Source: Elusimicrobia bacterium RIFOXYD2_FULL_34_15 (GTDB lineage Bacteria; Elusimicrobiota; UBA8919). Taken from it: 35,468 bases of DNA. The position numbers and the translations under genes were made by a program. The stretch covers positions 1-35,468 of the forward strand of contig MGVS01000061.1 in the NCBI GenBank assembly GCA_001800605.1. Reading direction: 5' to 3'. The notes below the pieces were generated by a model that saw nothing but the letters and a program-made list of their open reading frames with translations, was not told the origin of the DNA and made no database searches. This document shows positions 4,680 through 34,451 of this stretch, in pieces. The stretch's first letter is position 1. The number at the start of each line of letters is the position of its first letter.

Positions 4680-4694
4680 GAAGAGGCATAATCT

Positions 4695-5741
4695 ATGGAT
4701 AATAAACTCATTTTTTTTGATTCAACTTTGCGTGACGGTTCTCACGCTGTAAGCCATAAGCTTGAAGCTGAAAATATAAAAAATTATTGCAGGGAAATAG
4801 ATGAGGCGGGTTTATATACCGTAATTGTCGGCCATGGCAATGGTCTTGGCGCTTCTTCTTTGCAGGTTGGGCTATCCGCACTTACAGATAATGAAATGCT
4901 TGAAACCGCTCACCGGGAACTTAAAAAAACTAAATTGGGAGCATTTTTAATACCCGGTTTTGGTACGATAAAAGAAAACTTAAATCCGGCTATTGATAGA
5001 GGAGTTGAATTATTTTGCGTTGCAGTTCATTGTACAGAGGCAGATGTTACCAAGCAGCATATAGAATACATAAGATCTAAGGGAAAGGAAGCATATGGTA
5101 TATTGATGATGTATCATATGGCTACTAAAGAACGGCTTTTGGAAGAAGCGTTAAAAATGCAGAGTTACGGAGCACAAGGTGTAATTCTAATGGATTCTGC
5201 AGGAGCTTCGGTTCCAAAATTAGTATCAGATACAGTCAGATATTTTGTTGATCATTTAAAAGTTAGAGTAGGTTTTCATGCTCATAATAATCTTGGTCTT
5301 GCAATTTCAAATTCGTTGATAGCAATAGAGTCAGGTGCTGCTATTATTGATGGTACTGTTCGAGGTTTTGGGGCAGGAGCGGGTAATTGCCAGCTTGAAG
5401 TTTTATCAGGACTTCTCTCGAAATTGGAAATTGAAACAGGTCTTGATTTATATAAATTGATGGATGCAAGCGATCATGTTGTTGCAAAAATGATGAAAAC
5501 ACCGCAGGAAATAACATCAATGAGCTTAATCAGCGGTCTTGCCGGTGTTTTTTCCGGTTTTGCAAATAATGTAAAAAAGGCAGCTATAAGATTTAAGGTT
5601 GATCCAAGAGATATTTTTATGGAATTGGGACGCAGAAAGATAGTAGCAGGACAGGAAGATTTCATTGTTGATGTTGCTATGTATTTGGCAAGTAAAAAAG
5701 GTTCTGAAGAAGAAAGTTACGATATTGAATCATTATTATGA
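4695..5741 (+). CDS. mhpE: 4-hydroxy-2-oxovalerate aldolase, MhpE/DmpG family
   Basis: This class II pyruvate aldolase reversibly joins pyruvate and acetaldehyde to 4-hydroxy-2-oxovalerate, channelling the aldehyde to or from MhpF. The HMGL-like TIM barrel begins with STLRDGSHAVSH, which holds the expected R13, metal-binding D14 and base H17. The other metal ligands H195 and H197 lie in GFHAHNN. GTVRGFGAGAGNCQLEV and a C-terminal helical domain complete the family pattern. The length (348) is normal. AAGAGG (4681-4686) precedes the ATG by 8 nt. All catalytic residues I can place are intact, so activity is expected; whether the aldehyde is acetaldehyde cannot be read from the sequence. The stop TGA (5739-5741) overlaps the first bases of the next repeat. 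Confidence 0.9.
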   Translation: MDNKLIFFDSTLRDGSHAVSHKLEAENIKNYCREIDEAGLYTVIVGHGNGLGASSLQVGLSALTDNEMLETAHRELKKTKLGAFLIPGFGTIKENLNPAIDRGVELFCVAVHCTEADVTKQHIEYIRSKGKEAYGILMMYHMATKERLLEEALKMQSYGAQGVILMDSAGASVPKLVSDTVRYFVDHLKVRVGFHAHNNLGLAISNSLIAIESGAAIIDGTVRGFGAGAGNCQLEVLSGLLSKLEIETGLDLYKLMDASDHVVAKMMKTPQEITSMSLISGLAGVFSGFANNVKKAAIRFKVDPRDIFMELGRRKIVAGQEDFIVDVAMYLASKKGSEEESYDIESLL

Positions 5742-5871
5742 TATTGTTGGAAAACCCAACAATATCTGATTACACTGATTAAAGCAAGATTACACAGACC
5801 TGCCTGACGGTAGGCAGGTTAAGGCACGATTGTAGTATCTGTGTAATCGTTTTTTAAAATCTGTGTAATCG
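5740..5871 (+). repeat. Interspersed inverted repeat, copy C
   Basis: A perfect 11-bp head stem GATATTGTTGG / CCAACAATATC (5740-5750, 5756-5766, loop AAAAC) starts at the aldolase stop codon. Arms GATTACACTGATT (5768-5780) and GATTACACAGA (5789-5799) follow. A GC-rich palindrome (5798-5819) forms the centre, and two inverted arms ATCTGTGTAATCG lie at 5837-5849 and 5859-5871. The whole can fold into one large hairpin. No T-tract follows the head stem, so it is not a canonical intrinsic terminator. Confidence 0.75.
5798..5819 (+). repeat. GC-rich mini-palindrome nested in copy C
   Basis: ACCTGCCT (5798-5805) pairs perfectly with AGGCAGGT (5812-5819) around a 6-nt loop GACGGT. It sits at the centre of copy C, where copy B (12539-12655) has only AT-rich sequence. 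It differs in sequence from the palindrome in copy A. Confidence 0.65.
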
Positions 5872-5896
5872 TCTTTTAAAAGTGAGGTATTGAAAA

Positions 5897-7681
5897 ATGA
5901 GAGTTGCAGATTTTATCTTCAAATATTTAACTGACAGAGGTACTGATACTGTTTTTATGGTTTCAGGCGGACAAGCGATGTTTCTTGTTGATGCAATTTA
6001 TCAAAATAAAAAACTAAAGCCGATTTGTACACATCATGAACAGACCGCCGGAATGTCGGCTGATGCATACGGAAGAATAACCGGTAAGTTAGGTGTTGTG
6101 TTGGTTACCGCAGGGCCTGGTTCTGTGAATGTCATGAATGGTCTTGTCGGAGGTTGGACTGATTCGTCGCCAATGATAATTATATCGGGACAGTCTGCGT
6201 TATCTCACGTTAAATATCAGCAAGAGCATCCGGTAAGACAATACGGTATTCAGGGCATAAATATAAAACCTCTTGTTGAGAAAGCTACAAAATATTTTAT
6301 AACAGTTGATGATCCCGCTAAAATATTGTATTACATCGGCAAGGCATATTATCTTGCTTTAAGCGGCCGTCCGGGACCTGTATGGATTGATGTACCTTTG
6401 GATATACAAAAGATGGAAGTACCGGTTCATTTATTAGAAGAGTTTATGCCGCCAATTGAAAATACTAATAATAGTCTATTAAAAGAACAAGTTTTTAGTA
6501 CATTGAAACTTTTGAATAATTCGAAAAGGCCTGTTTTCGTAGTCGGGCAGGGTGTACGTTTGGCAAATGCTGTTAGCGAATTTTCAGAAATATGTGAAAA
6601 GTTAAATATACCGGTAATCACATCCAGGCTGGGAATTGACCTTATAAATAGCGATAATGAATTATATGTCGGCCGTCCGGGTAACTACGGAGAAAGGTCT
6701 GCAAACTTTGCAATCCAGAATTCAGACTTAATAATTTCTGCCGGTTGCAGGCTCGCTTCTGCGCTTGTCGGGCATGATCCTAAAAATTTCGGTAAATTTG
6801 CTAAAAAAATAGTTGTTGATATTGACAAGGAAGAACTGGATAAACCAGGTGTAAATATCGACTTGAAAATTCACAACGATGTTAAACGTTTTTTTACTGA
6901 GATATTAAAACAAATTAAAGCATCCGAAGTTCCTGATTTTACCGGATGGATTAAACAATGTAATCATTGGAAAAAAACATATCCTGTAGTTTTGCCTTCC
7001 TACAAAAAAGAAAAACCTATTAATTCATATTATTTTACTGATAGATTATCGGAAATATCTAAGAAAGAGGATATGATAATCGTTGATACTGGTACTTGTT
7101 TCCATGTTGCATGCCAGGCATGGAAAATAAAAAAAGGTCAGAGATTTTTAACTACAGGCGGTCTTTCTTCAATGGGCTGGTGGGTAGCCGGAATAGGTGC
7201 TTGCATTGCAAACGATAGGAAACGAACCATAGTTATTACCGGTGACGGAAGTTTGCAGATGAATATTCAGGAATTTGCAACTATTAAACATAATAAATTA
7301 CCGATAAAGGTTTTTATTTTTAATAATAACGGATATTTGCTTATAAGACACACGCAAAAAAACTTTATGGAAGGAAGATTATTGGGCGAAGGACCGGATA
7401 CGGGAGTTTGGTGTCCGGATTCATTAAAGATTGCACAGGCATACGGAATAAAAGGTGTAAGAATAAATTCAGTAAAAGAAGTTGATTCAAAAATTAAGGA
7501 AGTTATGGATTCGTCAGGGCCTGTAATTTGTGATGTTATGACACCGGAATGGCAGTTGATTATCCCGAGAATATCTTCGGAAAAAAGACCAGATGGTACT
7601 TTGGTTTCAAAACCTTACGAAGACATGTTTCCGTTTCTGGATAGAAAAATTTTGAAGAAAGAAATGGTTGCTGAATCATAA
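5897..7681 (+). CDS. Thiamine-diphosphate enzyme, acetolactate synthase/YerE-like
   Basis: This is a 594-residue ThDP-dependent enzyme of the pyruvate oxidase/acetolactate synthase superfamily. It has an N-terminal pyrimidine-binding domain with catalytic E48 (HHEQTAG), a middle domain (about 200-330), and a C-terminal PP-binding domain with GDGS at 449-452 and NNNG at 476-479. In Yersinia the related YerE decarboxylates pyruvate and adds the two-carbon acyl group to C-4 of CDP-4-keto-3,6-dideoxyglucose, giving the branched sugar yersiniose. Its place between the aldolase pair and rfbH fits that class better than branched-chain amino acid synthesis; no small regulatory subunit (IlvN) is present. 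The donor may be pyruvate or 4-hydroxy-2-oxovalerate. GTGAGG precedes the ATG. Confidence 0.85.
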   Translation: MRVADFIFKYLTDRGTDTVFMVSGGQAMFLVDAIYQNKKLKPICTHHEQTAGMSADAYGRITGKLGVVLVTAGPGSVNVMNGLVGGWTDSSPMIIISGQSALSHVKYQQEHPVRQYGIQGINIKPLVEKATKYFITVDDPAKILYYIGKAYYLALSGRPGPVWIDVPLDIQKMEVPVHLLEEFMPPIENTNNSLLKEQVFSTLKLLNNSKRPVFVVGQGVRLANAVSEFSEICEKLNIPVITSRLGIDLINSDNELYVGRPGNYGERSANFAIQNSDLIISAGCRLASALVGHDPKNFGKFAKKIVVDIDKEELDKPGVNIDLKIHNDVKRFFTEILKQIKASEVPDFTGWIKQCNHWKKTYPVVLPSYKKEKPINSYYFTDRLSEISKKEDMIIVDTGTCFHVACQAWKIKKGQRFLTTGGLSSMGWWVAGIGACIANDRKRTIVITGDGSLQMNIQEFATIKHNKLPIKVFIFNNNGYLLIRHTQKNFMEGRLLGEGPDTGVWCPDSLKIAQAYGIKGVRINSVKEVDSKIKEVMDSSGPVICDVMTPEWQLIIPRISSEKRPDGTLVSKPYEDMFPFLDRKILKKEMVAES

Positions 7682-8614: not shown

Positions 8615-8630
8615 AATATTGGAGAGTAAT

Positions 8631-9944
8631 ATGAAAAATGAATTAAAAATAAAAAAAGAAATTTTAAATAAGGTTAAGGAGTTTTATTTTGCACAGCAGA
8701 AGAAAAAGTTTATTCCGGGCAGCACACTTGTAAATTACGCAGGACGGGTTTATGATTATAAAGAACTAGTAAATCTAGTTGATTCTTCGCTTGACTTTTG
8801 GTTAACTGCCGGAAGATATGCACAGGAGTTTGAGGAAAAATTTGCAGAGTTTTTAGGAATGAAATATTGTTCTTTGGTTAATTCCGGCTCTTCCGCAAAT
8901 CTTATTGCTTTAACAACATTAACTTCTAGGGCTTTAAAAAATAGACAGTTAAAGCCAGGGGATGAAGTAATTACGACCGCATGCGGTTTTCCGACAACAT
9001 TAAATCCAATTATTCAAAATAACCTGAAACCGGTATTTATTGATGTTGAGCTTGGAACATATGACATTCAAGCCGATAAAATTGAAAAAGCAATTTCAAA
9101 AAAGACAAAAGCAATATTTGTTCCTCATACTTTGGGTAATCCGTCAAATATAGATAAAATATTAAAATTGGTAAAAAAATACAACCTTTGGTTTATTGAA
9201 GATAATTGCGATGCTCTTGGATCAAGATATAACGGTAAATATACCGGAACATTCGGCCATATTTCAACATTCAGTTTTTATCCGGCTCATCATATCACAA
9301 TGGGCGAAGGCGGTGCGGTTGCAACAAATGATCCATTGTTGAGAAGAATAATATTATCATTTCGTGATTGGGGAAGAGATTGTTGGTGTGAACCCGGACA
9401 CGATAATACCTGTAAAATGCGGTTTAATCAGCAGTTCGGTGAATTGCCATTCGGTTATGATCATAAATATGTTTACTCTCATATAGGGTACAATCTAAAA
9501 GTAACGGATATGCAGGCATCCGTAGGAGTAGCTCAGTTAGAAAAACTTCCAAGATTTATAGATGTACGTAAAAATAATTTCGAATATCTGTTTACTAAAT
9601 TAAAAAGATACGAAAAATATTTTATTTTGCCTATTGCGACAAAAAATTCTTCACCGAGCTGGTTTGGATTCCCGATTATAGTAAAAGAAACGGCATCATT
9701 CAATAGATCAGATATTGTAAGTTTTCTTGAAACAAATAAAATTGCAACACGTATGCTTTTTGGCGGTAATTTGATAAAACAGCCTGCCTATCAAAATATA
9801 AAATACAGAGTGCATGGTGACTTGAAAAACACTGATTTAGTTATGAATAATCTGTTCTGGATTGGAGTATATCCAGGAATAAATAAAGAAAAACTCAAAT
9901 ATATAATTCATATTTTTGATGTGTTTTTAAAAAAAAATAGATGA
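8631..9944 (+). CDS. rfbH: CDP-4-keto-6-deoxyglucose 3-dehydrase (E1)
   Basis: This pyridoxamine-phosphate and [2Fe-2S] enzyme removes the C-3 hydroxyl of CDP-4-keto-6-deoxyglucose. It has the aminotransferase fold with the lysine replaced by histidine: H220 in YPAHHITMGEGG. The iron-sulfur spacing C-X57-C-X1-C-X7-C is intact as C193, C251, C253 and C261, the positions known for the Yersinia E1. One non-ligand cysteine often seen in this loop is His257 here. The start at ATG 8631 is preferred because GGAGAG lies at 8621-8626; an in-frame TTG at 8619 has no such site. It gives 437 residues, the usual length. Its reductase partner (RfbI/AscD) is not in the window. It overlaps the next gene by ATGA (9941-9944). 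Confidence 0.95.
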   Translation: MKNELKIKKEILNKVKEFYFAQQKKKFIPGSTLVNYAGRVYDYKELVNLVDSSLDFWLTAGRYAQEFEEKFAEFLGMKYCSLVNSGSSANLIALTTLTSRALKNRQLKPGDEVITTACGFPTTLNPIIQNNLKPVFIDVELGTYDIQADKIEKAISKKTKAIFVPHTLGNPSNIDKILKLVKKYNLWFIEDNCDALGSRYNGKYTGTFGHISTFSFYPAHHITMGEGGAVATNDPLLRRIILSFRDWGRDCWCEPGHDNTCKMRFNQQFGELPFGYDHKYVYSHIGYNLKVTDMQASVGVAQLEKLPRFIDVRKNNFEYLFTKLKRYEKYFILPIATKNSSPSWFGFPIIVKETASFNRSDIVSFLETNKIATRMLFGGNLIKQPAYQNIKYRVHGDLKNTDLVMNNLFWIGVYPGINKEKLKYIIHIFDVFLKKNR

Positions 9945-11593
9945 AAATATTAATTGTTGTTCCGCGTACAATTGTATCTGATAAAGTAAATTATAAATAT
10001 CTTTTTCCGCTGGGACTAGCGTACATATCTTCGGCATTGAAATTAGCGGGACATGATATTGATTGTCTAAACCTGAATCATTATTCGGGTACAACTGAAA
10101 ATTTAATAAATAATTACTTATTTTCGCAAAAGTATAATGTTATCTGTACCGGCGGTTTATCTACTTCATATAAACAGATAAAGATGGTCACAGATGCTGT
10201 TCATAAATCAGGTACCGATGCCAAACTTATTTTAGGCGGTGGAGCAATTTCAAGCGAACCAGAACTTATGTTTAATGCTCTGAAACCGGATTATATTGTA
10301 ATTGGCGAAGGCGAGAAAACAATTGTAGAGCTTGTTAATAGTATTAAAAATGGTGATAATGTTAAATATGTTGATGGTATAGGTTATTTGGATAACAATG
10401 CCAAATTTATCTGTACAAAACCTCAAGTACCTATAGAAAATCTGGATACTATTCCTTTACCGGATTTTGAAGGGTTTGAGTTTGAAAAATATCTTGACAA
10501 CATGCAGCCTTCAGATATGTATTTCTACGATTTATATGACTTTCCAAGGGTATATCCCATTGTCTGCAGCCGTTCATGTCCTTTTTTATGTACTTTTTGT
10601 TTTCACCCGGTAGGTAATAGATATCGGCAAAGGAGTGTTGATTCTATAATCCATGAGCTTTCAGTTATGATAAAGCGTTATCGTATAAATACAATTGCTA
10701 TTTATGACGAATTATTTTCCAATAACCGTGAATGGCTTTTTGAATTCTGCAAACGCATAAAAATGCTTTTTTCGGAGATTTCATGGGAGTGCAAGTGGAG
10801 TTGCCAGATGCGGGTTGATAAATTAGATGACGAAATGTTAAGAGTAATGAAAGATTCCGGATGTTATATGATAAGTTATGGTTTTGAAAGCTATAGTCCT
10901 GTTGTTTTAAAAAGTATGAAAAAACATATAACTCCGGAACAAATAAAAAATGCTGTGGATACGACAATGAAACATAATATAAGTATCCAGGCTAATTTTA
11001 TATTTGGCGACTCCGCTGAAACCATGCAAACAGCTAGTGAGACGCTCGATTATTGGAAGAAAAATAATTCTGCAGGTATTATGCTATCTTATATTAATCC
11101 TTATCCCGGCAGTGAGCTTTATGAGCATTGTATTGAAAAGGGGATAATCAAAGATAAACTGGATTTCATAGAAAATCATATTTATGATATATTGAATATG
11201 AGTGGTACTATGACAGATAGAGAGCTTGAAAAATTGAAATATGATATTTATGAAGCGGAACTTAGATATAGGTTTTATGCAGTACCGAAGTCATTAAAAA
11301 AAACCGAAGATAATACGTATAATATTAAAGTTAAATGTCCTCATTGCAAAGAAATTATAGAATATAAAAATTATTCGATTACTTATAAATTATATTTTCT
11401 TTATTTGATGTATTGCCGTAATTGCCGTAAACGTTTCTTTGTTGTTTCCGGAGCTTATATGGTTATTTCAAAAATTATGTTATTATTTTATTTAATGATG
11501 CCTAAAGAATTAAAAGTTGCAACTTATAAAGTATTTCAAGGATTAACAAAAATTAAACCAGCTTTAAAAAAATACATTTTAAAATTTTCGTAA
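9941..11593 (+). CDS. B12-binding-domain radical SAM protein with C-terminal zinc ribbon
   Basis: This is a 550-residue protein. Residues 1-140 look like a cobalamin-binding Rossmann domain (PLGLAYISSALKLAGHDI, then LGGGAISSEPE and IGEGEKTIVEL). The radical SAM core carries CxxxCxxC as C213, C217 and C220, preceded by an extra C209. After the barrel, a ribbon-like module has C466-x2-C469 and C492-x2-C495, with hydrophobic helices after it. Members of this broad family do C-methylation, oxidation or other radical changes; the substrate here is unknown. Start-stop overlap with rfbH suggests coupled translation and a role in modifying the same sugar or a lipid carrier. A membrane association of the tail is possible. 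Confidence 0.85.
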   Translation: MKILIVVPRTIVSDKVNYKYLFPLGLAYISSALKLAGHDIDCLNLNHYSGTTENLINNYLFSQKYNVICTGGLSTSYKQIKMVTDAVHKSGTDAKLILGGGAISSEPELMFNALKPDYIVIGEGEKTIVELVNSIKNGDNVKYVDGIGYLDNNAKFICTKPQVPIENLDTIPLPDFEGFEFEKYLDNMQPSDMYFYDLYDFPRVYPIVCSRSCPFLCTFCFHPVGNRYRQRSVDSIIHELSVMIKRYRINTIAIYDELFSNNREWLFEFCKRIKMLFSEISWECKWSCQMRVDKLDDEMLRVMKDSGCYMISYGFESYSPVVLKSMKKHITPEQIKNAVDTTMKHNISIQANFIFGDSAETMQTASETLDYWKKNNSAGIMLSYINPYPGSELYEHCIEKGIIKDKLDFIENHIYDILNMSGTMTDRELEKLKYDIYEAELRYRFYAVPKSLKKTEDNTYNIKVKCPHCKEIIEYKNYSITYKLYFLYLMYCRNCRKRFFVVSGAYMVISKIMLLFYLMMPKELKVATYKVFQGLTKIKPALKKYILKFS

Positions 11594-12688: not shown

Positions 12689-15600
12689 GTGAAAAAATAT
12701 TTTAAAATAATTATCATTATTTTAATTTTATTATTAACGGTTGTGGAATATTTGTGGTATAAAAAAGAAAGTAATGTTGATATATTAAAAAAGTATCCGC
12801 TTTATAGTATAGTAGGTAAAGCTTATCCGGACAAACAGATAAAAACCGTAAATCCTATAGATGGATGGCTTGTGTATGGTCCATATACACCGATGAGAAA
12901 AGGAGAATATGAAATAACATATGAGTTGTTTCTGAATAATATTAAACCAAATGAGAATCCTTCAAAAGTAGTTGGTTATGTAAATATTGATGTTGAAAAT
13001 CATCCAACATTAATATATCAGCAGAATTTTACTATTAATGATTTTAAAAAAACAAATCCTTATAAGATAACCTTGAAGTTTACTATCCCGGAAGGGCTTC
13101 CGAAAATACAGTATAGAGTTTTTCAATATGGCGGAAACGAAATTACACTAAAGGGCTTAAAGTTATCTCCAAAGAGCTTTTGGAGTAAGTATGGTATTCT
13201 AAAAAGTAATTTTATTCTTTATAATTTTGTTTTGATTATAGCTTTATTTTTAATTTTAATACCTGAATATTATTGGTTTAGAAACAAAGAAGTTAAAAAA
13301 AATAGATTATTAGAAGGCAGTGTTTTGGTATTGATATTGACACTTGGTTTTCTTAATCTCAACAAGAGCTGGTTATTTAAAGAAGATACTAATATAAATG
13401 TTTTGAAATCGTATCCTTCATTTACCCATGTCGGTACAATAGATAATGTAAGTAAACAGGTTAATGGTGATGGTTCTAAAGAAGGTTTTTTGCTTTTCGG
13501 ACAAAATGTGCCATTAGCAAAAGGAAAATATAGAGTTAAATTTAAAATAAATTTAAGCAATTTAAATAAAAATGACGATATGGAGAAAAAAATTGCTTAT
13601 TGTGATGTGTATATTGACGGGCACGAATCTATATCAGGAATAAAAATGCTGACTAATAGAGATTTTATAAAGCGAAATCCGAATACCGTATCCTTTAAAT
13701 TCAGGGTAATAGAGGATTTGGCTAATGTTCAATTCCGCGTTTATCAATACAAATTGAATATTCTTTCAGTTGAATCAATAAAGCTGCAATCGGTAATCGG
13801 AAAAAGCATAGCTACAGTAAAGACAGGTATTATAAGAAAGCTTATTGTTTTAATCCTTACAATAATAATGATATCTTGTTTAATATTTATATTTAAAATT
13901 TATTTTAACTTATTAACTTCAAACAGAACAAAAGTCGTCAGTGAATACGTACTGGTTATTATTTTATGTCTGCTAACTTTTTTATGGATTACTAAATTAT
14001 GGAAAACTAGTTTAAGAGTTCCGATTGATTACGGCGGAGATGCATTATTCTCAGCCATGACTATTAAATCAACTATTGATAATAATTGGTATTGGAATAA
14101 TAAATATTCCGGAGCACCAACAGGCCTTTTAATGCACGATTATCCAATGTCAGAAAATGTTCATTTTTTAATAATAAAGATAATATCAATATTTTCTTCC
14201 GATTGGGCGTTAGTAATGAATATTTTTTTCATACTTACTTTTTTATTGGCGGCAATTTCGGCGTTGTTTGTATTCAGGCAATTTAAAATCTCATATGCAC
14301 CTGCAGCAGCAGCAAGCTTGCTTTATGCTTTTTTGCCAACCCATTTTTTCAGGAATGTTAGCCACCTATTTGTTGTATCATACTATGCTGTTCCACTGAT
14401 TATAATGGTAATATTATGGATATATTCCGACAATCCGCCCTTTTTTATTAAAGAAAAAAATTCTGAAAATAGTAAATTTAGCTTTCGAGATTACAAATCG
14501 ATAGTTAGCTTGATAATAGGCCTTATAATTTCATCAACAGGGATATATTATGCCTTCTTTGCTTGCTTATTTATTATTGTTGCCGGTTTTTCTTCTTATT
14601 TGTCACATAAGAAAATATCCAATCTTGTAGCTGCTTTGATATTATTAGCGGTAGTAAATATAGGATTTATAGTTAACTTATCACCTTCGATAGTTTACAA
14701 GTTAAAGCATGGAAAGAATATGGCAACATATCATTATGACCCTAATGGCGCAGAAATTCACGGCTTGAAAATTATACAAATGCTGCTTCCGATTTCAGAT
14801 CATAGAATACCGGCATTTGCAAAATTGAATAAAAAATATTATGCAATAGCACTATTAGTCAACGAAAATGGGGCCGCAGTTTTGGGTTTAGTCGGTAGTA
14901 TAGGTTTTATTATTTTAATTGGATGGCTATTTTATAGAAAATCAAGTTGTTCAAATGAAGATTTAACCGGTAATTTGAGTGAATTAAATGTTGCTGCTGT
15001 ATTATTTGCAACAATAGGCGGATTTTCTTCTCTTTTTGCATTTTTAATTTCTCCGCAATTGAGGGCGTACAACAGAATAAGTGTTTTTATTTCTTTCTTT
15101 TCTTTGTTTGCTGTTGTATTGCTTTTGGATAAAATTTATCATAAGTTTATTAAAACAGAATTAACCAAATTTATATACTATGTACTTATTATGTTTATAT
15201 TTGTGTTCGGCATATTGGATGAGACCAATAAAACATTTGTCTTTCCCGCCACTTGGGTGCAATCTGAATATAATGAGACTGCCGGTTATATCAAAAAAAT
15301 TGAAAGTTCCGTACCAAAAAACTCAATGATATTCCAGCTGCCGTATCTGGCTTTTCCTGAAAGTCCTACAATGTATTGGATGGGTGCTTATGAATTGTTT
15401 AAAGGATATTTGCATTCACATACTTTACGTTGGAGTTTTGGTTCAATGAAAGGCAGGGAATGTGATTTATGGCAAAAGGAAGTTACTGCAAAACCATTGA
15501 ACGAATTCTTAGAAGAAATATCTTTAGTGGGATTTAATGGAATATATGTAGATAAATACGGTTTTGCGGATGCTTTTGCTCCTGCCGGGCCGGATATTGT

Positions 15601-15769
15601 ATCAAAACTTTCGGATACTTTAAAAATAAAACCTGTTACAAATTATAATAATAGATTTTTCTTTTTTAATCTTGAAGAATATAACAAAAAACTGCAAAAG
15701 AAGTATTCTGCAGTAGAAATAAAAACAAAACGAGATGCCATATTTTCTAAATATAAATTAAATATATAA
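12689..15769 (+). CDS. Large membrane protein, GT-C-like, with two copies of an N-terminal YGPY domain
   Basis: This is a 1026-residue polytopic membrane protein. After a signal-anchor helix (about 4-23) comes a roughly 135-residue soluble domain (about 30-165) with the pattern GWLVYGPY-P, GEYE, GYVNIDVENHP, FTIxDF, NPY, PEGLPKxQYRVFQYGGN. A helical pair follows, then a second diverged copy (about 236-375), and then about ten or more hydrophobic helices and a C-terminal soluble part of about 170 residues. The membrane half, with an Asp-rich first loop (VPIDYGGDALFSA), resembles GT-C glycosyltransferases. It may add a lipid-linked sugar on the outer face or act in polymerisation; neither is proven. 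GTG 12689 with AGGGGG at 12679-12684 is a better-spaced start than TTG 12686. Confidence 0.7.
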   Translation: MKKYFKIIIIILILLLTVVEYLWYKKESNVDILKKYPLYSIVGKAYPDKQIKTVNPIDGWLVYGPYTPMRKGEYEITYELFLNNIKPNENPSKVVGYVNIDVENHPTLIYQQNFTINDFKKTNPYKITLKFTIPEGLPKIQYRVFQYGGNEITLKGLKLSPKSFWSKYGILKSNFILYNFVLIIALFLILIPEYYWFRNKEVKKNRLLEGSVLVLILTLGFLNLNKSWLFKEDTNINVLKSYPSFTHVGTIDNVSKQVNGDGSKEGFLLFGQNVPLAKGKYRVKFKINLSNLNKNDDMEKKIAYCDVYIDGHESISGIKMLTNRDFIKRNPNTVSFKFRVIEDLANVQFRVYQYKLNILSVESIKLQSVIGKSIATVKTGIIRKLIVLILTIIMISCLIFIFKIYFNLLTSNRTKVVSEYVLVIILCLLTFLWITKLWKTSLRVPIDYGGDALFSAMTIKSTIDNNWYWNNKYSGAPTGLLMHDYPMSENVHFLIIKIISIFSSDWALVMNIFFILTFLLAAISALFVFRQFKISYAPAAAASLLYAFLPTHFFRNVSHLFVVSYYAVPLIIMVILWIYSDNPPFFIKEKNSENSKFSFRDYKSIVSLIIGLIISSTGIYYAFFACLFIIVAGFSSYLSHKKISNLVAALILLAVVNIGFIVNLSPSIVYKLKHGKNMATYHYDPNGAEIHGLKIIQMLLPISDHRIPAFAKLNKKYYAIALLVNENGAAVLGLVGSIGFIILIGWLFYRKSSCSNEDLTGNLSELNVAAVLFATIGGFSSLFAFLISPQLRAYNRISVFISFFSLFAVVLLLDKIYHKFIKTELTKFIYYVLIMFIFVFGILDETNKTFVFPATWVQSEYNETAGYIKKIESSVPKNSMIFQLPYLAFPESPTMYWMGAYELFKGYLHSHTLRWSFGSMKGRECDLWQKEVTAKPLNEFLEEISLVGFNGIYVDKYGFADAFAPAGPDIVSKLSDTLKIKPVTNYNNRFFFFNLEEYNKKLQKKYSAVEIKTKRDAIFSKYKLNI

Positions 15770-15782
15770 TCGGAGATAATTA

Positions 15783-18125
15783 ATGAAAAAATTCTATATT
15801 CTAATCGTAATTGTATCAATCTTGGCTCTTTTAGTTGATGTTGAGTCTAAATGGTATAAGAACGGAAGAAGTATAAACATACTTAAAAAATATGCCATGT
15901 TTAGCATGGTAGGGAAAAATTATCCATCTGGCCAGATAAAAACCGAGAATCTAGTTGATGGATGGTTAGCATTTGGCCCATATTTACCTTTAAAAAAAGG
16001 AGAATATGAAGTTGCAATAAAGCTTTTTTTGAATAATTTGAAATCAGATGATAATCCTTCAAGGATAGCGGGTTATTGCGATGTAGATATAGAAGGCCAT
16101 CCTGAATTGGGTCAACATATCGATTTAGCAATAAAAAGTTTTCAGAATAAAAATCCATATACGGTATATTTAAAACTTAATGTCCCTGATGGTTTACCAA
16201 AAACACAATTTAGGACTTTTCAGTATGGAGGGAACGAATTTATAATAACAGGGATAAAATTATATGCAAAAACTTTTAGGCTTAGATATGATTTCCTTAA
16301 GAGTAATTTTTTACTTTATAATCTTATTTTATTATTAGTTTCTATTTTTATTTTGAGTCCCGGTTATTTTTGGTTAAAAAATAAAAATGGAAAAAAACAG
16401 AAGATAATCGAATCTGATTTTTCTATAACTGAAGAAAAGGATAATTCTGTTTCTTTTAATTATTTAATTCAATTTTCAATCGTTGCTTTATTTTCATTGT
16501 TAATCCTGAATGCTTATTGGTTTAATAAATTTCATATACCAATTGTTCCCATAGCAGAGATAATAACAATAGGTATAGAATTATTGTTGTTTTACATGAT
16601 AATGAAAAGATTTAATTTGAAAATTAATATAAAATTTAATTTGGTTGATACAATATTGTTTGCCTCAGTATTTGGTTTTATAGGATATTCTTTGATAAGA
16701 CCGGCACTTCCTACATTTATGCCGATTAATTATAGCAATGATTGTGTTTTACATTATAACTGGCTTGAATATCTATATAATAACAAAAAACTTACCGGTT
16801 CAATATTAGAATCTTATCCGTTTGGATATCATTTAATAACCGTTATGTTATCTAAATTCACAGGTATTCCGGCTGTTAAAATGATGCATATTGTTTTAGT
16901 GTTTGCCGTAACTTTATCAGCAACCATTGCATATTCTATAATTGTAAGTATTTTTAATCTTAAAAAAGATGCAAAACTTATGGCAATATTACCTGTATTT
17001 ACGCTATTTTGGGTAAGAGGGTATTACGAATTAGGTTTTAATGAATTGTTCCATGCCCCTATGTATTTTAGTTATATGTTTATGATATCGTTTTTATGGG
17101 CATTAGTTGAATATGATAAACATGAAAAATGGTTTAGTTATACTGCTCTTATCGTTTCAGGAATAGCTACCTTGTATACTTATATTTTTCATTTACCTAT
17201 ATTAATGTTGTCTTTCTTTATAATGGTTGTGTTAAGGAATAAATTAAGTTATTCTTCAATTAAAACAATCATTAAAGATTTATCAATTGTGTTGTTGCCG
17301 ATAGTTTTCTTAGCCCTTATGCATGCTTTTACCGGTTCAACAACAAAGATGGGAATGGATGTTTTGAGTTCAAATGGCTGGTGCGTACCTTTCAGGTTTT
17401 TAGATTTCGGAGATTTTGGTGGGAATAAGATCGGCGGTAAATTTTTAATTTTATCTTTGATAGGGATTCCGATATTAATGACTTCTTTCCGTAAGAAATT
17501 AGGATTGAATAGTTTTATCATTGGATTTTTGTTTTATCTCAGTGTTTTTATTGTTTTGGTAAAATTTGTAGGAAAGCTTTCTCCGTATCCGATTTCTAAA
17601 TTATTATATTTTTCTCCGTATCTTGGTGTTATATGCATAGCCGGAGTTTTATACCTTGTGCGAAAATTATATATTACTGCCCTAAGTGATATTATTGGCG
17701 ATAAGATTTATAAGGTTTTGTTTGTACTATGGGTTGTATTGATAGCATGGTTTGGAAAGTATATATACAATTTAGAAAGTTATAAACCTTTTCATGTAGA
17801 ACTATTTAAAGAACCGGTATTTTTAACCACAGATTGGGCAAGAAAAAACATAAAAGAAAAGTTTGATTTTATTTATCATCATCCTAATATTGGCAACTGG
17901 ATGCATCAGGGTTTTATGGGTGAAGCGTTTAATGATGCTTATTATTATAAAGTTTTTGTAAAGCCGATGGTTACGTTAAGCGATTGGCTAAACAGCGCAA
18001 AGAAAGGAAGCATCGCCGTTGTAGATGATTTAAATACGCCTCCGTTAACAGATAGGCAAAAAAAGCAATTTGAAATAATTTATCAAAAAGAAAATAGTGC
18101 TGTTATTAAGAAAATTAGAAAATAA
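15783..18125 (+). CDS. Large membrane protein, GT-C-like, with one N-terminal YGPY domain
   Basis: This 780-residue relative of the preceding gene starts 13 nt after it. A membrane anchor (about 4-20) leads into one copy of the shared domain (about 30-165): GWLAFGPYLPL, KKGEYEV, GYCDVDIEGHP, NPYTVYLKL, PDGLPKTQFR, FQYGGNE. The remainder is membrane helices, beginning near 175, with a possible catalytic loop SNDCVLHYNW (about 319-328), and a short soluble C-terminus (about 670-780). The first 165 residues are visibly homologous to residues 1-165 of the upstream protein, which points to tandem duplication followed by divergence of the membrane part. The role is probably transfer of a sugar from a lipid carrier in the periplasm. 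Confidence in the family is moderate. Confidence 0.7.
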   Translation: MKKFYILIVIVSILALLVDVESKWYKNGRSINILKKYAMFSMVGKNYPSGQIKTENLVDGWLAFGPYLPLKKGEYEVAIKLFLNNLKSDDNPSRIAGYCDVDIEGHPELGQHIDLAIKSFQNKNPYTVYLKLNVPDGLPKTQFRTFQYGGNEFIITGIKLYAKTFRLRYDFLKSNFLLYNLILLLVSIFILSPGYFWLKNKNGKKQKIIESDFSITEEKDNSVSFNYLIQFSIVALFSLLILNAYWFNKFHIPIVPIAEIITIGIELLLFYMIMKRFNLKINIKFNLVDTILFASVFGFIGYSLIRPALPTFMPINYSNDCVLHYNWLEYLYNNKKLTGSILESYPFGYHLITVMLSKFTGIPAVKMMHIVLVFAVTLSATIAYSIIVSIFNLKKDAKLMAILPVFTLFWVRGYYELGFNELFHAPMYFSYMFMISFLWALVEYDKHEKWFSYTALIVSGIATLYTYIFHLPILMLSFFIMVVLRNKLSYSSIKTIIKDLSIVLLPIVFLALMHAFTGSTTKMGMDVLSSNGWCVPFRFLDFGDFGGNKIGGKFLILSLIGIPILMTSFRKKLGLNSFIIGFLFYLSVFIVLVKFVGKLSPYPISKLLYFSPYLGVICIAGVLYLVRKLYITALSDIIGDKIYKVLFVLWVVLIAWFGKYIYNLESYKPFHVELFKEPVFLTTDWARKNIKEKFDFIYHHPNIGNWMHQGFMGEAFNDAYYYKVFVKPMVTLSDWLNSAKKGSIAVVDDLNTPPLTDRQKKQFEIIYQKENSAVIKKIRK

Positions 18126-19927: not shown

Positions 19928-20856
19928 AAAAAATTCTTGTAACAGGCGCCAATGGTTTTCTAGGACGGCATGTGATTCCGCTGTTATTAAAACATAACTA
20001 TCATGTTTACGCAGTGGATAATAATATAACAATGGGTTCTGAGAAAAAAGAAAATCTTAGCTGGCATGAATGTAATTTGTTTGATCCGGAAGATAAAAAG
20101 AGTTTATTCTCTAAAATAAAACCGACTCATTTATTGCACTTAGCATGGTATACGGTTCCGAAAAAATACTGGACTGCACCTGAAAATGTTTTATGGGTTA
20201 AGGCAAGTATCGAGCTATTCTTTAATTTTTTAGAGAACGGCGGACGCCGTGCCGTGTTTGCAGGCACCTGTGCTGAATATAATTGGGATTACGAATTGTT
20301 AAGTGAAGATAAAACACCTCTTTTACCAAAGACTTTATATGGAAAGTGTAAAAATTCTTTAAATACTATGTTAGGTGCTTTAGCCGAGCAAAAAGATATA
20401 AGTTATGCATGGGGACGGATTTTCTTTTTATACGGTTCCGGCGAAAATAAAGAACGTTTGATTCCAGAAGTAATAAATTCGTTGCTTAAAGGAAAAGAGG
20501 TTAATTGTTCTCACGGGAGGCAGGTAAGAGATTTTCTTCATGTCGAAGATGTTGCTGATGCTTTTGTTACACTTGTAGAAAGTAATTTACGCGGTTCGGT
20601 AAATATTGCTTCCGGGCAGCCTGCGACACTGAAACAAATAATTTATAAAATTGCAGAGAAACTTGATAGAAAAGATTTAATTCGTTTAAATGCTGTTCCA
20701 TCATCTAAAAGTGAACCTCTGCGTTTGATTGCTGATAATAAACGCCTGAAAAATGAACTAAAATGGAAACCTAAATATAATTTAGATTCCGGTTTGGAAA
20801 AAACTATAAAGTGGTGGAAAAAAGAAATTTCTGGCTATAAAAAGGAGAAAATGTGA
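19924..20856 (+). CDS. NAD(P)-dependent sugar-nucleotide reductase/epimerase (extended SDR)
   Basis: This 310-residue SDR carries GANGFLGR (8-15), an active-site threonine in FAGTCAEYNW, and Y139/K143 in YGKCK. RDFLHVEDVADAF (about 202-214) and a C-terminal WKPKYNLDSGLEKTIKWW are typical of extended SDRs acting on nucleotide sugars. Following a C-methyltransferase and a cupin epimerase, it is most likely the 4-ketoreductase completing a branched deoxysugar. The start overlaps rfbC by ATGA, and the stop TGA overlaps the GTG start of the next gene. A C-4 epimerase role remains possible. Confidence 0.8.
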   Translation: MKKILVTGANGFLGRHVIPLLLKHNYHVYAVDNNITMGSEKKENLSWHECNLFDPEDKKSLFSKIKPTHLLHLAWYTVPKKYWTAPENVLWVKASIELFFNFLENGGRRAVFAGTCAEYNWDYELLSEDKTPLLPKTLYGKCKNSLNTMLGALAEQKDISYAWGRIFFLYGSGENKERLIPEVINSLLKGKEVNCSHGRQVRDFLHVEDVADAFVTLVESNLRGSVNIASGQPATLKQIIYKIAEKLDRKDLIRLNAVPSSKSEPLRLIADNKRLKNELKWKPKYNLDSGLEKTIKWWKKEISGYKKEKM

Positions 20857-21617
20857 AATTAATAATTGACACAAAAGAAAAGAAACTAACGGAAGTAATA
20901 GACGGGAAAGAACGTTCTATAGAATTGTATTCTAAAGAAGCATTTGAGCTAATTTCACGCCAGTGGTTAAAAGTAGGCTGGAACCAGAAATATCCGTATA
21001 CATTCAGCTGGATGGGACGTCCGGTTATTCAATTACCTGAAGATATGATTCGTATGCAGGAAGTAATTTACAAGGTAAAACCAGATGTAATTATCGAAAC
21101 AGGTATAGCACACGGCGGGTCACTTATTTATTACGCAAGTTTATGCAAAGCTATGGAAAAAGGCAGGATTATTGGTGTCGATATAGAAATCCGGGCACAT
21201 AACCGTAAAGCGATAGAAAAACATGAATTAAAACCGCTTATAACTCTGATTGAAGGAAGTTCTACGGATGTTAAAATTGTTAATCAAGTGAAATCGCTTA
21301 TAAAACCCAATGAAACCGTATTAGTTATTCTTGATTCAAATCATACGAAAAAACACGTATTAAGCGAATTGGAAGCATATTATTCAGTTGTAACAAAAAA
21401 TTCCTACATAGTTGCAACAGACGGCAGCATGAAATATCTTTACGATGTTCCTCGCGGTAAACAAGAATGGATAACCGATAATCCAGTTGAGGCAGCAAAA
21501 GAATTTGCTTCAAAACATTCCGATTTTGTAATTGAACAACCTATGTGGATTTTCAATGAAAGTGAACTCTCGGAAAATATAACCCATTGGCCATCCTCAT
21601 TCTTGAGAAAAATCTGA
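20853..21617 (+). CDS. CmcI-like (cephalosporin hydroxylase family) methyltransferase
   Basis: This 254-residue SAM-dependent enzyme belongs to the CmcI/rhamnosyl O-methyltransferase group. GRPVIQLPEDM (55-65), the SAM-binding IIETGIAHGGS (80-90), GVDIEIR and the LVILDSNHTKKHVLSEL segment fit that group, which in polysaccharide loci usually O-methylates a sugar. The start is GTG 20853, dictated by AAAGGAG at 20841-20847 and by overlap with the stop of the gene before. The in-frame ATG choice at 20851 fails because it reads directly into TGA. It ends 1 nt before the flippase gene. Confidence 0.8.
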   Translation: MKLIIDTKEKKLTEVIDGKERSIELYSKEAFELISRQWLKVGWNQKYPYTFSWMGRPVIQLPEDMIRMQEVIYKVKPDVIIETGIAHGGSLIYYASLCKAMEKGRIIGVDIEIRAHNRKAIEKHELKPLITLIEGSSTDVKIVNQVKSLIKPNETVLVILDSNHTKKHVLSELEAYYSVVTKNSYIVATDGSMKYLYDVPRGKQEWITDNPVEAAKEFASKHSDFVIEQPMWIFNESELSENITHWPSSFLRKI

Positions 21618-21618
21618 A

Positions 21619-23136
21619 ATGTCTAAACTTTCCAAAAATATTGTTTATAATATCGGCGGACAGGGATTGCTTTTAATTCTAAGTCTTGTCGCTGTTAAAT
21701 ATGTTTTTAATCGCCTGGGTGGTGAAGCCCTTGGTATAATATATTTTACATTTACATTAAATGCCATTATATGTGCAGTTATGGAGATGGGAATCTCAAG
21801 CACCGTAGTCCGTGAAGTATCTGCACATGTGAAAGATGAACCCGATTATATACATAAGCTTATACAAACGGTATCTTTATTTCATTGGGCTATTTATATT
21901 TTGTTTGCTGTAATCATATATTTCGGAGCTCCGTTTATCATAGAGAAATGGATTAATCTCAAATCTATGGATACGGCTACTGCAAAACGTGTGTTACAGA
22001 TCCTCGGTATTGCTGCTTTAACAGCATTGCCTAAATCGCTTTATGCAAGTATATTTCGCGGTTTGCAGAGGATGGAATTCAATAATATTATTGATGTTTT
22101 TATTACCGGACTTCAACAGTTTGGTATTATTGTAATTCTTGCTATTGGCGGCGGGCTTATGGCTGTTGTTAGTTGGATGGCTATTTCTTTTTTGCTCGGG
22201 ATGATATGTTATTTGTTTTCTGCATTTTATTTTTTTTCATGGAAATCTTTTATACCGGCTTATCATGATAGTGTTATAAAAAAGAATTTGGGATATACTT
22301 CAAACATGATGCTGATTTCCGTCTTGTCTATGATACATATGCAATTCGATAAGGTGATAGCAAGTAAATTTTTATCGATTGCTGTATTTGGATACTACAA
22401 CTTTGCATATGGCGCAGTTTCTAAAGCAACGCTAATGACAAGCGCTATTGCACAGGCTGCCTTTCCTTCTTTTTCTGCGCTTTTTAAAGAAGGTGGCAGG
22501 GATTGTATGATGCCTCAGTACAGAAAGCTGCAGGATATGCTTTGTTTTAGTACAGTTCCTATTTTTGCTGCGGTTCCATTTGCTGCAATACCTATCTTTA
22601 GACTTGTATTTAATAATGAGGTAGCAAAAAGTTTATTATTGCCGATTACATTTCTTGCAATAGGTTTTTATATGCACGGAACTTTAAATGTCCCGTATTT
22701 CTTTTCTTTATCAGTAGGAAAACCGGAGATTTCTGTTAAATCCAATTTTTATGCTTTATTTATCGTTCTTCCGGTTACGGCGTTATTAATATATTTTTTT
22801 GGATTAAACGGAGCAGGTTTTTCATGGATATTTTATCAGTTATTTGCCTATTCTTATGCAATTCCAAGGATTTGTTCCGAATGTCTTATAATTCCCGTAT
22901 CTGAATGGTACGGGCATATTCTTAGAATCTTCATTCTTATAAGTTTGAGTTATGGTTTAGCATGGTTAGTTTTATATTTAAATAACAACTACTCTATTTT
23001 TGCGTTAATATTAGCTTATATAAGCGCTTCCATTGTTTTTCTTATAGGCAGCTATTTTTTAATCAGTGAAGATTTTAAAAAAGTGATTTTTAGCAGGCTT
23101 AACATACTTAAAGTAAAATTTGTGCCACAACAATAA
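21619..23136 (+). CDS. wzx: Oligosaccharide flippase (Wzx-like), first copy
   Basis: This 505-residue polytopic membrane protein of the MOP/MATE superfamily has roughly 12-14 hydrophobic helices. The N-terminus NIGGQGLLLILSLVAVKYVFNRLG and the conserved MEMGISSTVVREVSAH segment are typical of polysaccharide flippases. Its role is to move undecaprenyl-linked repeat units across the inner membrane. It lies 1 nt after the CmcI-like gene and 33 nt before a GT2. The second Wzx-like gene (25380) is a different sequence, so this is not a simple duplicate. Confidence 0.85.
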   Translation: MSKLSKNIVYNIGGQGLLLILSLVAVKYVFNRLGGEALGIIYFTFTLNAIICAVMEMGISSTVVREVSAHVKDEPDYIHKLIQTVSLFHWAIYILFAVIIYFGAPFIIEKWINLKSMDTATAKRVLQILGIAALTALPKSLYASIFRGLQRMEFNNIIDVFITGLQQFGIIVILAIGGGLMAVVSWMAISFLLGMICYLFSAFYFFSWKSFIPAYHDSVIKKNLGYTSNMMLISVLSMIHMQFDKVIASKFLSIAVFGYYNFAYGAVSKATLMTSAIAQAAFPSFSALFKEGGRDCMMPQYRKLQDMLCFSTVPIFAAVPFAAIPIFRLVFNNEVAKSLLLPITFLAIGFYMHGTLNVPYFFSLSVGKPEISVKSNFYALFIVLPVTALLIYFFGLNGAGFSWIFYQLFAYSYAIPRICSECLIIPVSEWYGHILRIFILISLSYGLAWLVLYLNNNYSIFALILAYISASIVFLIGSYFLISEDFKKVIFSRLNILKVKFVPQQ

Positions 23137-31488: not shown

Positions 31489-34451
31489 ATAGTCTAGTTA
31501 AAAAAATACTGTTTCTAGTTGCTATTATATTAGTGTCTTTTCTTTCAATTAGATATGAATATATTATATTCAAGAAATCATTGACAGTTGATATATTTAA
31601 AAGCAAATTACCGATGTACAGCGTTGTCGGTATGGTTGAGAAAAATAGTCAAATTAAAACGGATAATAGCAATGAAGGTTATTTGGCATACGGTCCGTAT
31701 GTGTCGTTAAAAGAAGGGAAGTATTCAGTTAGATACAAGTTGTTATTAAATAGTTTTAATAATAATAACCAAAGTATAGGTTATTGTGATATAGATATAG
31801 AAAACCATCCCAAGATTGCTTTCCGTAAGAATTTAACTATATCTGATTTTAAAAATCAAAATCCTCAGGAAATACAAATTGATTTTTATATTCCGGGCGG
31901 TTTGCCAAAAGTTCAATTCAGGGTTTATCAATATTCCGGAAATAACATTTCTCTCACCGATTTATTATTTACTCAAAATTCCTATAAAATAAAGGATTTT
32001 ATTTTAGATAACTATGGTACTTTGCGTATTAAAACATTTTATATTTTTGGAATATTAATATTATTTTTCTTATATATAAAGCTAATATTTAAAAGTGGAA
32101 ACAATAGTTTAATAAAACATTCTGTGTTTACAACAATTATTATAATTATTTCAGGATTAGTAATGTCAGCTATATGGCAAAATAAGAATTTTTCTAACTT
32201 TGTGCGGAAAGATTATTATGATATGTGGAAAGTTTTTTATGCACCTTTATGGGTTTCTCTTGTCTTTATATTCTTTAATTTCCTTTATTTAATAAACAAC
32301 CGTTTTGGGTTTAGTGAAAAAATAGAAAAATACCTTAAATATGATAAATTTTCCTTATTAATAATTCCAATATTTATTTTAACAGAACTATTTTACAAAA
32401 ACTTTAATACACAATTTGTATTAGGTAACTTTTATCTAAGCACTTTGATAATCAAAGGGCTTATATATTTCTCTTTCCTATGGCAGAATATAAAAGATGA
32501 GGAAAATGTTGAAGTAAGTAAAGGTATAAAATGGTCAATATTCCTGAGTATTTTTACTATATATTTATTAATAACGCCATGGGTAAACGCATGCTTTTAC
32601 GCTGATGGTGATGAACCGAGAAATTTAATAATAACGCAAAGTTTAATAAAAGATGGTGATAGGGATATTAGTAATAATTTAGAGAGCGAAGATAATTTAT
32701 CGTATCACAGCAGTTTAAAATCGTATGGTCAAAATTGGAAAAGCTTTATTTCAGGCATATCTCCTTCGTTTACAATTATACTAATTCCGGGATTTGTCTT
32801 GGGTGGTCGTTTTGCTATTAGTTTACTGATGAATATTTTTGGTGCATTACTATTATTAAATATATTTCAAATTATATTTCATTTAACAAAATCAAATAGT
32901 TCAAGTTTTTTAGCAATGATTATAGGTGCTTTTTCTTTGCCGATAGGTATATATTCATTTTTAGCATATCCGGAAATTATAGCCGCTTTAATCGTGACAT
33001 ATATAATAAGAAAATTACTTTTACAAGAATATAATTTAATCGATATAATAACAATGTTTTTATTGGCAATATTATTAACAATTATTAAAGAAAGATATCT
33101 TATTTTGACTTTGTCATTATTTATTTCGATAATTATTTCGATTAAAAAGAATAAAAAAGTGTTATTAAATTTCGTTTTATTATTTATAATTTTCGGAGTT
33201 TTACTTTTTTTTTATGATAAATATTTAATTGGTTTTGATATTATTTCAAAAATATCAAATTATTATAAACCAATACTGCAAAAATTTAAATATATAATTA
33301 CAGTAGGCGATTTTGGTCTTATGTTGGATCAGGAAAGGGGATTGCTCATGCATGCTCCTGTATATATATTTAGCTTTCTCGGCATTATAAGCTTGTTGAA
33401 AACCAATAAAAAAATTGTTTTACTATTGTTACTGCTATTTTTGCCATATTACAATTTAATTTCAAAGGGACCGGATTGGTCATCTTTGGGAGGTTCCCCT
33501 GCGACAAGATATATAGTTACAATAATTCCAATTTTGATAATATTTTATGGCGTGTTTTTAAATCATTGTAGGAGATTATGGCTGAAATTAGTAAATTATT
33601 TTGCTATAGCATGGTCTTTTGTAATGTACTATATTCTTATTTTATTCCCTCAATATAGAACCCATAGTCCTTCTGATTTAACGGGAAGAAATGAAATATT
33701 AGATAGATTGTATTCCGTAAGATTATTTCCTGATTTAACTCCTTTATTTCCGTCTTTTTTGAAAATATTTGACACAACGTATCATTTAACTATTCTATTT
33801 ATTATAATATTTATAGTTCTATTGATTTATTATAAAAAGCAAGAGAATGTTATTGAAGAAAAATATGACAAAAAAAAAGTATTAAAAATCACTGCGGTTA
33901 TTATCAGTATTTTTATTTCTTTTTTAGTTTTAGGTAAATTTTCATATTATAAATATCAGGTATTTGAAGTGGAAAATTACTATACAGGTGGCGGAATGCT
34001 ATGGCAAGAAGGTTTGTTACTTAAAGGTAAAGGATATTTTTCGTTAATTAAGGTTGCGCTAAGAAAAAGTGAAGAAATTAAAATAAAGTTAATTGTAAAG
34101 GGTGATATCCCGAAGGATTTGCCTGAAATAAGTATTGAAATCGGTAACAACAAATATAAAGAGAAAATTGGAAAGATTAAAATTGAAAGTAGGAATTGGA
34201 AAGAATATAGTATTTTATATAAAACAGAAGAAGGTGGGTTAAAACCTTTTTGGTTTATTTATGATAATTATACTGAAGGTAAAGATGTTCTTATAGATAA
34301 AATTATATTTTCATCGATAGAAAAAAAGTCTTGGTTAGGATTTATAAATTATCAATTAGGTAGAATAGATAGACGTTTGGGTTTGATTGACTATGCATAT
34401 ATTAGATTTGAAAAAGCTGCAAAATTAGGATATAAAATTGAAAAAAAATAA
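31485..34451 (+). CDS. Large membrane protein, GT-C-like, with N-terminal YGPY domain and C-terminal beta domain
   Basis: This 988-residue protein is the third member of the family at 12689 and 15783. An anchor helix (about 6-22) precedes one shared domain (about 35-167: GYLAYGPYVSL, GYCDIDIENHP, LTISDF, NPQEI, PGGLPKVQFRVYQYSGN). Many membrane helices follow. The first large outer loop after them contains FYADGDEPRNLI (about 371-382), whose acidic D-x-E resembles the catalytic loop of ArnT/GT39-like GT-C enzymes. Residues from about 825 form a second soluble region (YTGGGMLWQEGLLLKGKGY onwards) that looks like a beta-rich, carbohydrate-binding-type module. A lipid-linked sugar transferase acting outside the cytoplasmic membrane is the best guess. 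Confidence 0.72.
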   Translation: MNSLVKKILFLVAIILVSFLSIRYEYIIFKKSLTVDIFKSKLPMYSVVGMVEKNSQIKTDNSNEGYLAYGPYVSLKEGKYSVRYKLLLNSFNNNNQSIGYCDIDIENHPKIAFRKNLTISDFKNQNPQEIQIDFYIPGGLPKVQFRVYQYSGNNISLTDLLFTQNSYKIKDFILDNYGTLRIKTFYIFGILILFFLYIKLIFKSGNNSLIKHSVFTTIIIIISGLVMSAIWQNKNFSNFVRKDYYDMWKVFYAPLWVSLVFIFFNFLYLINNRFGFSEKIEKYLKYDKFSLLIIPIFILTELFYKNFNTQFVLGNFYLSTLIIKGLIYFSFLWQNIKDEENVEVSKGIKWSIFLSIFTIYLLITPWVNACFYADGDEPRNLIITQSLIKDGDRDISNNLESEDNLSYHSSLKSYGQNWKSFISGISPSFTIILIPGFVLGGRFAISLLMNIFGALLLLNIFQIIFHLTKSNSSSFLAMIIGAFSLPIGIYSFLAYPEIIAALIVTYIIRKLLLQEYNLIDIITMFLLAILLTIIKERYLILTLSLFISIIISIKKNKKVLLNFVLLFIIFGVLLFFYDKYLIGFDIISKISNYYKPILQKFKYIITVGDFGLMLDQERGLLMHAPVYIFSFLGIISLLKTNKKIVLLLLLLFLPYYNLISKGPDWSSLGGSPATRYIVTIIPILIIFYGVFLNHCRRLWLKLVNYFAIAWSFVMYYILILFPQYRTHSPSDLTGRNEILDRLYSVRLFPDLTPLFPSFLKIFDTTYHLTILFIIIFIVLLIYYKKQENVIEEKYDKKKVLKITAVIISIFISFLVLGKFSYYKYQVFEVENYYTGGGMLWQEGLLLKGKGYFSLIKVALRKSEEIKIKLIVKGDIPKDLPEISIEIGNNKYKEKIGKIKIESRNWKEYSILYKTEEGGLKPFWFIYDNYTEGKDVLIDKIIFSSIEKKSWLGFINYQLGRIDRRLGLIDYAYIRFEKAAKLGYKIEKK

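Follow-up and report, generated by a model that had tools for sequence, protein, structure and literature searches.

A repeated YGPY domain in three large membrane proteins of an Elusimicrobiota polysaccharide cluster: a candidate glycan-binding module of putative GT-C glycosyltransferases

Among GT-C enzymes, the mycobacterial arabinosyltransferases offer the best-known cases of accessory glycan-binding domains, which there affect acceptor use. In EmbB, a periplasmic jelly-roll domain is located between TMH1 and TMH2 (PMC7305291), and in EmbC, a C-terminal carbohydrate-binding module (CBM) binds acceptor analogues, with mutants of its tryptophans losing both binding and activity (PMC3044687). 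A C-terminal CBM is also found in the O-antigen ABC transporter Wzt of the E. coli O9a type, where it reads the polysaccharide within the biosynthetic machine, and O-antigen modification follows a three-component scheme that includes a synthase, a flippase, and a GT-C enzyme (PMC11127046). The domain described here, which we call the YGPY module, is predicted to share with the periplasmic N-terminal domain (PDN) of EmbA, EmbB, and EmbC (Arabino_trans_N, PF17689) the arrangement of a periplasmic jelly roll placed right behind the first transmembrane (TM) helix of a polyprenyl-phosphate-sugar-dependent GT-C enzyme (PMC7305291). Unlike the Emb PDN, it is bracketed by TM helices ahead of the putative core, can be doubled, can stand without the core, and shows no sequence match to PF17689 (this profile has no match in the genome at E 0.001, whereas the control, Corynebacterium glutamicum, matches). 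Wzt offers a further parallel, a putative CBM within a biosynthetic machine, although the protein context differs.

The window, that is, the whole stretch of DNA analyzed here, is a complete contig (C61) of 35,468 bp from a 2.47-Mb genome in 119 contigs. Sugar-nucleotide, flippase, glycosyltransferase, and Wzz-like genes are spread all over the window, as judged from ORF translations and Pfam searches, and the three proteins that carry the module (ORFs A, B, and C; Table 1) are probably membrane enzymes that make the surface sugars of this Elusimicrobiota bacterium. The translation of the GT2 gene next to ORF A reads as a likely synthase of the polyprenyl-phosphate-sugar type and a likely source of the lipid-linked donor. 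Acetaldehyde dehydrogenase and hydroxyoxovalerate aldolase usually form a catabolic pair. Here, genes for an acylating acetaldehyde dehydrogenase (PF09290) and a protein of the 4-hydroxy-2-oxovalerate-aldolase type (HMGL-like and DmpG_comm) adjoin the gene of a ThDP-dependent enzyme (3810-7681) within a cluster of the CDP-dideoxysugar type (1012-2919 and 8619-9944), and possibly serve to supply a carbon branch or to attach it to a sugar; an aldolase gene and a ThDP gene also lie near each other in the congener UBA9627 (locus L023, 86-3873). Directly upstream of the GT2 gene, a B12-binding radical SAM protein is encoded (9941-11593), with methylation of a sugar or a lipid as a possible role, and a protein of the CmcI/rhamnosyl O-methyltransferase family (PF04989) is encoded amid the sugar genes (20853-21617).

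Table 1 Features of the window that carry or adjoin the YGPY module
Feature	Coordinates	Strand	Remarks
GT2 with two C-terminal TM helices	11605..12540	+	PF00535; immediately upstream of ORF A
ORF A, 1027 aa	12686..15769	+	TM1 - A1 - TM2/TM3 - A2 - TM4/TM5 - putative GT-C half
TM1 of A, residues 6-24	12701..12757	+	Anchor ahead of A1; hydropathy
YGPY domain copy A1	12773..13180	+	BLASTP, alignment; tree sister of B1
TM2 and TM3 of A, residues 174-192 and 208-226	13205..13363	+	Basic loop RNKEVKKNR between
YGPY-family copy A2	13391..13792	+	Internal in ORF A; degenerate motif (FGQN)
Membrane half of A, putative GT-C core	14003..15766	+	Hydropathy
ORF B, 780 aa	15783..18125	+	TM1 - B1 - TM2 to TM5 - Asp320 - putative GT-C core
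YGPY domain copy B1	15870..16277	+	Copy used for the model
ORF C, 988 aa	31485..34451	+	TM1 - C1 - six further TM - Asp374 (DGDE) - putative GT-C core - soluble C-terminal domain
YGPY domain copy C1	31584..31985	+	BLASTP, profile, alignment
Second soluble region of C, residues 823-988	33951..34448	+	Profile comparison

The first-pass annotation, made from the sequence of the window, had reported four copies of a domain of about 135 residues in three giant membrane proteins, each next to an N-terminal membrane anchor. BLASTP and the genome profile recover the same four copies, with coordinates no more than a few bases apart from those first given: each of the six pairwise comparisons is significant (30-52% identity, E-values from 2.6e-57 to 8.8e-23), and across the 2.47-Mb genome the profile picks out these four sites and no others even at E 10. 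The N-terminal anchor holds for A1, B1, and C1, which follow TM1, but not for A2, which comes after the third TM helix of ORF A, although here, too, a TM helix immediately precedes the domain. The sequence motifs first quoted are well kept in B1 and C1 and partly in A1, where the GYCD(V/I)DIE-HP block reads GYVNIDVENHP, but poorly in A2, in which FGQN replaces YGPY and DLANVQFRVYQYKLN replaces GLPKxQFRVxQYxGN. When the copies of the congener are included, the GPY-type motif together with L-x-x-G-x-Y is present in seven of the nine Elusimicrobiota copies, with small changes in the members from outside the phylum; in the A2 type, GPY is gone and L-x-x-G-x-Y retained. No more than 11 positions stay the same throughout an alignment of eight copies (G15, G31, L33, G36, G44, Y46, L54, Y69, F91, Q118, and N122). 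On another contig of the same genome (C92), the contig end cuts a second C-like gene (locus L047, 15867-16403; 60% identity over the C-terminal 175 residues), behind which come genes for a Wzz-like and a sulfotransferase-like protein; the absent front part of the C-like gene may hold a fifth domain copy in this genome.

In line with the initial impression that the domain belongs to no named family, searches of Pfam, NCBIfam, PHROGs, and PDB sequences with the copies produced no significant match, and no CBM family appeared among the Pfam matches of any of the nine copies up to E 10. The best weak matches, to CopC (0.0096) and multicystatin (0.037), were below the cut-off and not common to the copies. 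The domain was not found in virus contigs and phages. The AlphaFold2 model of B1, built from an eight-copy input, is a compact beta-sandwich with short helices (mean pLDDT 81.5, pTM 0.76; weak chiefly at residues 1-30), as the proposal of a compact carbohydrate-binding-type sandwich had anticipated. Neither of the two outcomes that would have spoken against that proposal, a match to a well-described domain or the lack of a compact fold, turned up. The top Foldseek match in the PDB was the CBM6 structure 5fui (E 1.8e-4, TMq 0.53), with CBM35 (2w3j) at rank 3; the other matches included more CBM6 and CBM35 structures along with CBM51, PA14, adhesin lectin, and Eph ligand-binding domains. A jelly-roll beta-sandwich of the CBM6/CBM35-like class is therefore present in the model and its matches, at modest TM-scores of only about 0.5 and with the Eph-receptor ligand-binding domains nearly equal to the CBMs. 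Searching with a full-length model of B returned Eph domains, CBM51, a hyaluronan-binding module, and xylan-binding modules, all at E above 1e-3. The joint presence of CBMs, lectins, and Eph domains among the matches implies that the predicted fold is galactose-binding-like in the broad sense, and by itself such a fold does not decide between a sugar and a protein ligand. CBM6 and CBM35 modules are typically parts of secreted hydrolases; the YGPY module resembles these galactose-binding-like jelly rolls in its predicted fold but is below sequence detection, at a TM-score of about 0.5, and is found on putative membrane glycosyltransferases.

The architecture of the host proteins was read from hydropathy only. 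In each of six full-length proteins, namely A, B, C, and a further three that are related to them, an Asp resembling the catalytic Asp of GT-C enzymes comes after five or seven TM helices; for A, B, C, B', and C', 13 to 19 helices are predicted, with the Asp, picked by eye, after five or seven of them. In ORF A, this is Asp452 (14039-14041), which follows five TM helices, and the protein ends in a tail of 183 aa. Five or seven helices ahead of the Asp put the module and the Asp on the same side of the membrane, probably the outer one to judge from the N-termini, which are short and mostly basic, in agreement with the outer-face placement made at first pass. The C-terminal soluble region of C (EVENYYTGGG...) is conserved in the relatives of C and has no Pfam match; homology of this region to the YGPY domain was ruled out (hhalign probability 0.4%).

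The GT-C-like halves that had been proposed for the three proteins are upheld in part. In the congener, a protein headed by the module passes the PMT_2 (GT-C) cut-off (PF13231, 33.1 against 26.1 bits), but no Pfam GT-C match was obtained for A, B, and C even at E 10, nor did the B and C orthologues give one, and there was no NCBIfam GT-C match for A, B, and C, so that the GT-C identity of these three is putative and drawn from topology and architecture only. When B was modelled over its full length, the domain came out with good confidence once more, whereas the membrane half mostly falls below pLDDT 50 and is not interpretable. A search of 336 genomes from the phylum at E 1e-8 brought up no homologues of the three enzyme halves that lack the module, and for the membrane half of A, no homologue of any kind in other genomes of the phylum at this threshold. 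The window also encodes two flippase-type proteins (21619-23136 and 25380-26711) and Wzz-like chain regulators, and among its ORFs, there is no other polytopic polymerase candidate besides A, B, and C; together with the missing Pfam support, this raises the possibility that A, B, or C is a polymerase. Under this alternative, not all three proteins would be GT-C enzymes, at least one being a Wzy-type O-unit polymerase in which the module holds the growing polymer, a role compatible with glycan binding. We consider it rather improbable because the polymerase may be encoded off this contig, an Asp behind the first helix of the core and soluble tails at the C-terminus fit GT-C enzymes, and the fourth module-bearing protein of the congener belongs to PMT_2.

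As the congener, a genome of the same genus, we used Elusimicrobia bacterium UBA9627 (record DMMW01000002.1). In the profile search of 341 Elusimicrobiota genomes, the domain was present in two, the genome analyzed here and UBA9627; weak matches in other members of the phylum, to PheT, an integrase, and an NAD-dependent epimerase, were taken as chance, as was a match in one further genome (G298; E 0.013 over 40 columns). Of the five copies in UBA9627, a domain-only protein has two, while the B orthologue, the C orthologue, and the PMT_2 protein have a single copy each. The B orthologue is 50% identical over the full length, and the membrane half of C is 62% identical to that of its orthologue. 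The domain-only protein (locus L023, 9305-10468) consists of 388 residues, with two YGPY-family domains, four TM helices, and no enzyme half. Its gene lies between a GT2 gene and that of the B orthologue, which is the position of ORF A in the window. The fifth copy, on contig C49, is in a separate neighborhood and adjoins a ComM-type gene.

In a tree of the nine copies (four from the window and five from UBA9627), two groupings stand out, with the other forks left without resolution: A2 joins copy 1 of the domain-only protein (98/96), and A1 joins B1 (97/96). These groupings suggest that two domain types are older than the divergence of the two species and that a later duplication gave rise to A1 and B1. 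The domain could, in principle, be a relic or a spacer that was duplicated within the genus and keeps its structure with no binding role, as might fit its restriction to one genus within the phylum and the loss of YGPY in A2 and in copy 1 of the domain-only protein. However, all nine copies are of full length and keep many invariant positions, each species retains the orthologous copies, and other phyla have the same motif core, which makes this explanation highly improbable.

The spread outside Elusimicrobiota was assessed from plasmid records only. A tblastn search with the copy consensus gave two matches with E-values of 3 and 6, not significant alone, both with the YGPY core. One is an Azospirillum protein whose gene adjoins that of a glycosyltransferase; the other is the C-terminal part of a GtrA+DUF2079 protein of Halomarina, whose gene adjoins a GT4 gene. 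A profile that included both matches retrieved three new proteins, a second Azospirillum protein (26.6 bits) and two GT4 proteins of Ensifer adhaerens encoded by adjacent genes (19.1 and 12.9 bits, the latter weak); the Ensifer record had earlier surfaced as a weak tblastn match of the Halomarina domain. On this barely annotated Ensifer plasmid (NZ_CP084487.1; locus L041, 2495-6900), the YGPY-family domains are C-terminal in both GT4 proteins, and the first also contains TPR repeats. The second Azospirillum domain, used as a query, detected two further Azospirillum plasmids (E 8e-5 and 7e-4). The Azospirillum proteins are large. In none of these outside proteins does the stretch that forms the domain match Pfam or NCBIfam.

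Profile-profile comparison of the nine Elusimicrobiota copies with the seven outside sequences gave a probability of 97.8% (E 6.8e-13, 105 columns), and 97.1% (E 4.9e-11) after removal of the two bridging sequences, when the outside sequences that remained were ones found with other queries; in the controls, the best of 50 column-shuffled profiles reached 0.4% and the reversed profile 5.2%. These figures overstate independence somewhat, some of the outside sequences having been found by their likeness to that profile. By this match, the domain is most likely not genus-specific but a divergent branch of a wider unnamed family that is present on glycosyltransferases in other phyla. The Ensifer, Halomarina, and Azospirillum domains share with it the core [YFWHR]-G-P-x-x-x-[LM]-x-x-G-x-[YF] and a late E-[FV]-R strand; unlike the Elusimicrobiota copies, they are C-terminal, single, and mostly located on proteins without a membrane half, and the two that were compared with B1 are 16-18% identical to it.

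GT4 enzymes generally work on cytoplasmic glycans. That they, too, carry the domain favors a glycan ligand over a periplasm-specific partner and implies that the module is not strictly an outer-face device. We regard as the strongest rival, given the enzyme-free protein and the nearness of Eph domains among the fold matches, a docking or assembly role, in which modules would bind one another or different proteins and so draw the cluster's enzymes into a complex, with no sugar involved. The module is indeed common to three proteins of one cluster, the two-module, four-TM protein of UBA9627 occupies the place of ORF A without an enzyme half, and the Eph domains among the best fold matches bind proteins. 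Nevertheless, most of the other top fold matches bind carbohydrate, and in other phyla the domain occurs singly, on GT4 enzymes and an archaeal membrane protein, with no evident shared partner; we therefore regard docking as unlikely.

The reading that we favor, with a probability of about 0.58, is that the YGPY module is a periplasmic accessory domain of the carbohydrate-binding type that holds the acceptor glycan for polyprenyl-phosphate-sugar-dependent GT-C enzymes. Under this scenario, the jelly-roll module would sit, anchored by TM helices, in the periplasm ahead of the GT-C glycosyltransferase. At the inner face, the neighboring GT2 would produce a sugar linked to polyprenyl phosphate; this would then be flipped, and each GT-C enzyme would move the flipped sugar onto the growing surface polysaccharide. 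By binding the lipid-linked or polymeric acceptor glycan next to the active site, the module could increase specificity or processivity. The acceptor-holding role is drawn by analogy with the Emb arabinosyltransferases; from fold and company, we infer three features, namely glycan binding, recognition of the acceptor rather than the donor, and GT-C catalysis by A, B, and C. The TM-scores of about 0.5, the parity with Eph domains, the lack of Pfam GT-C support, the low confidence of the membrane half in the model of B, and the loss of YGPY in two copies count against this reading.

The YGPY module is a real, CBM-like accessory domain on membrane glycosyltransferases that is repeated across several enzymes and merits a family entry; the original functional guess, a substrate-presenting or glycan-binding module, is, by analogy, plausible. 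More tentatively, the domain might represent an unrecognized CBM family that acts as a general acceptor-holder for polysaccharide glycosyltransferases on both membrane faces, in Bacteria and Archaea, and that, in this genus, has become a self-contained membrane unit shuffled among GT-C enzymes and even employed alone, as a helper subunit. The naturally enzyme-free protein of UBA9627 provides a small target for the question of the ligand of the module. If an unnamed glycan-binding module is indeed present on glycosyltransferases in several phyla, many "hypothetical" proteins of polysaccharide loci would become annotatable.
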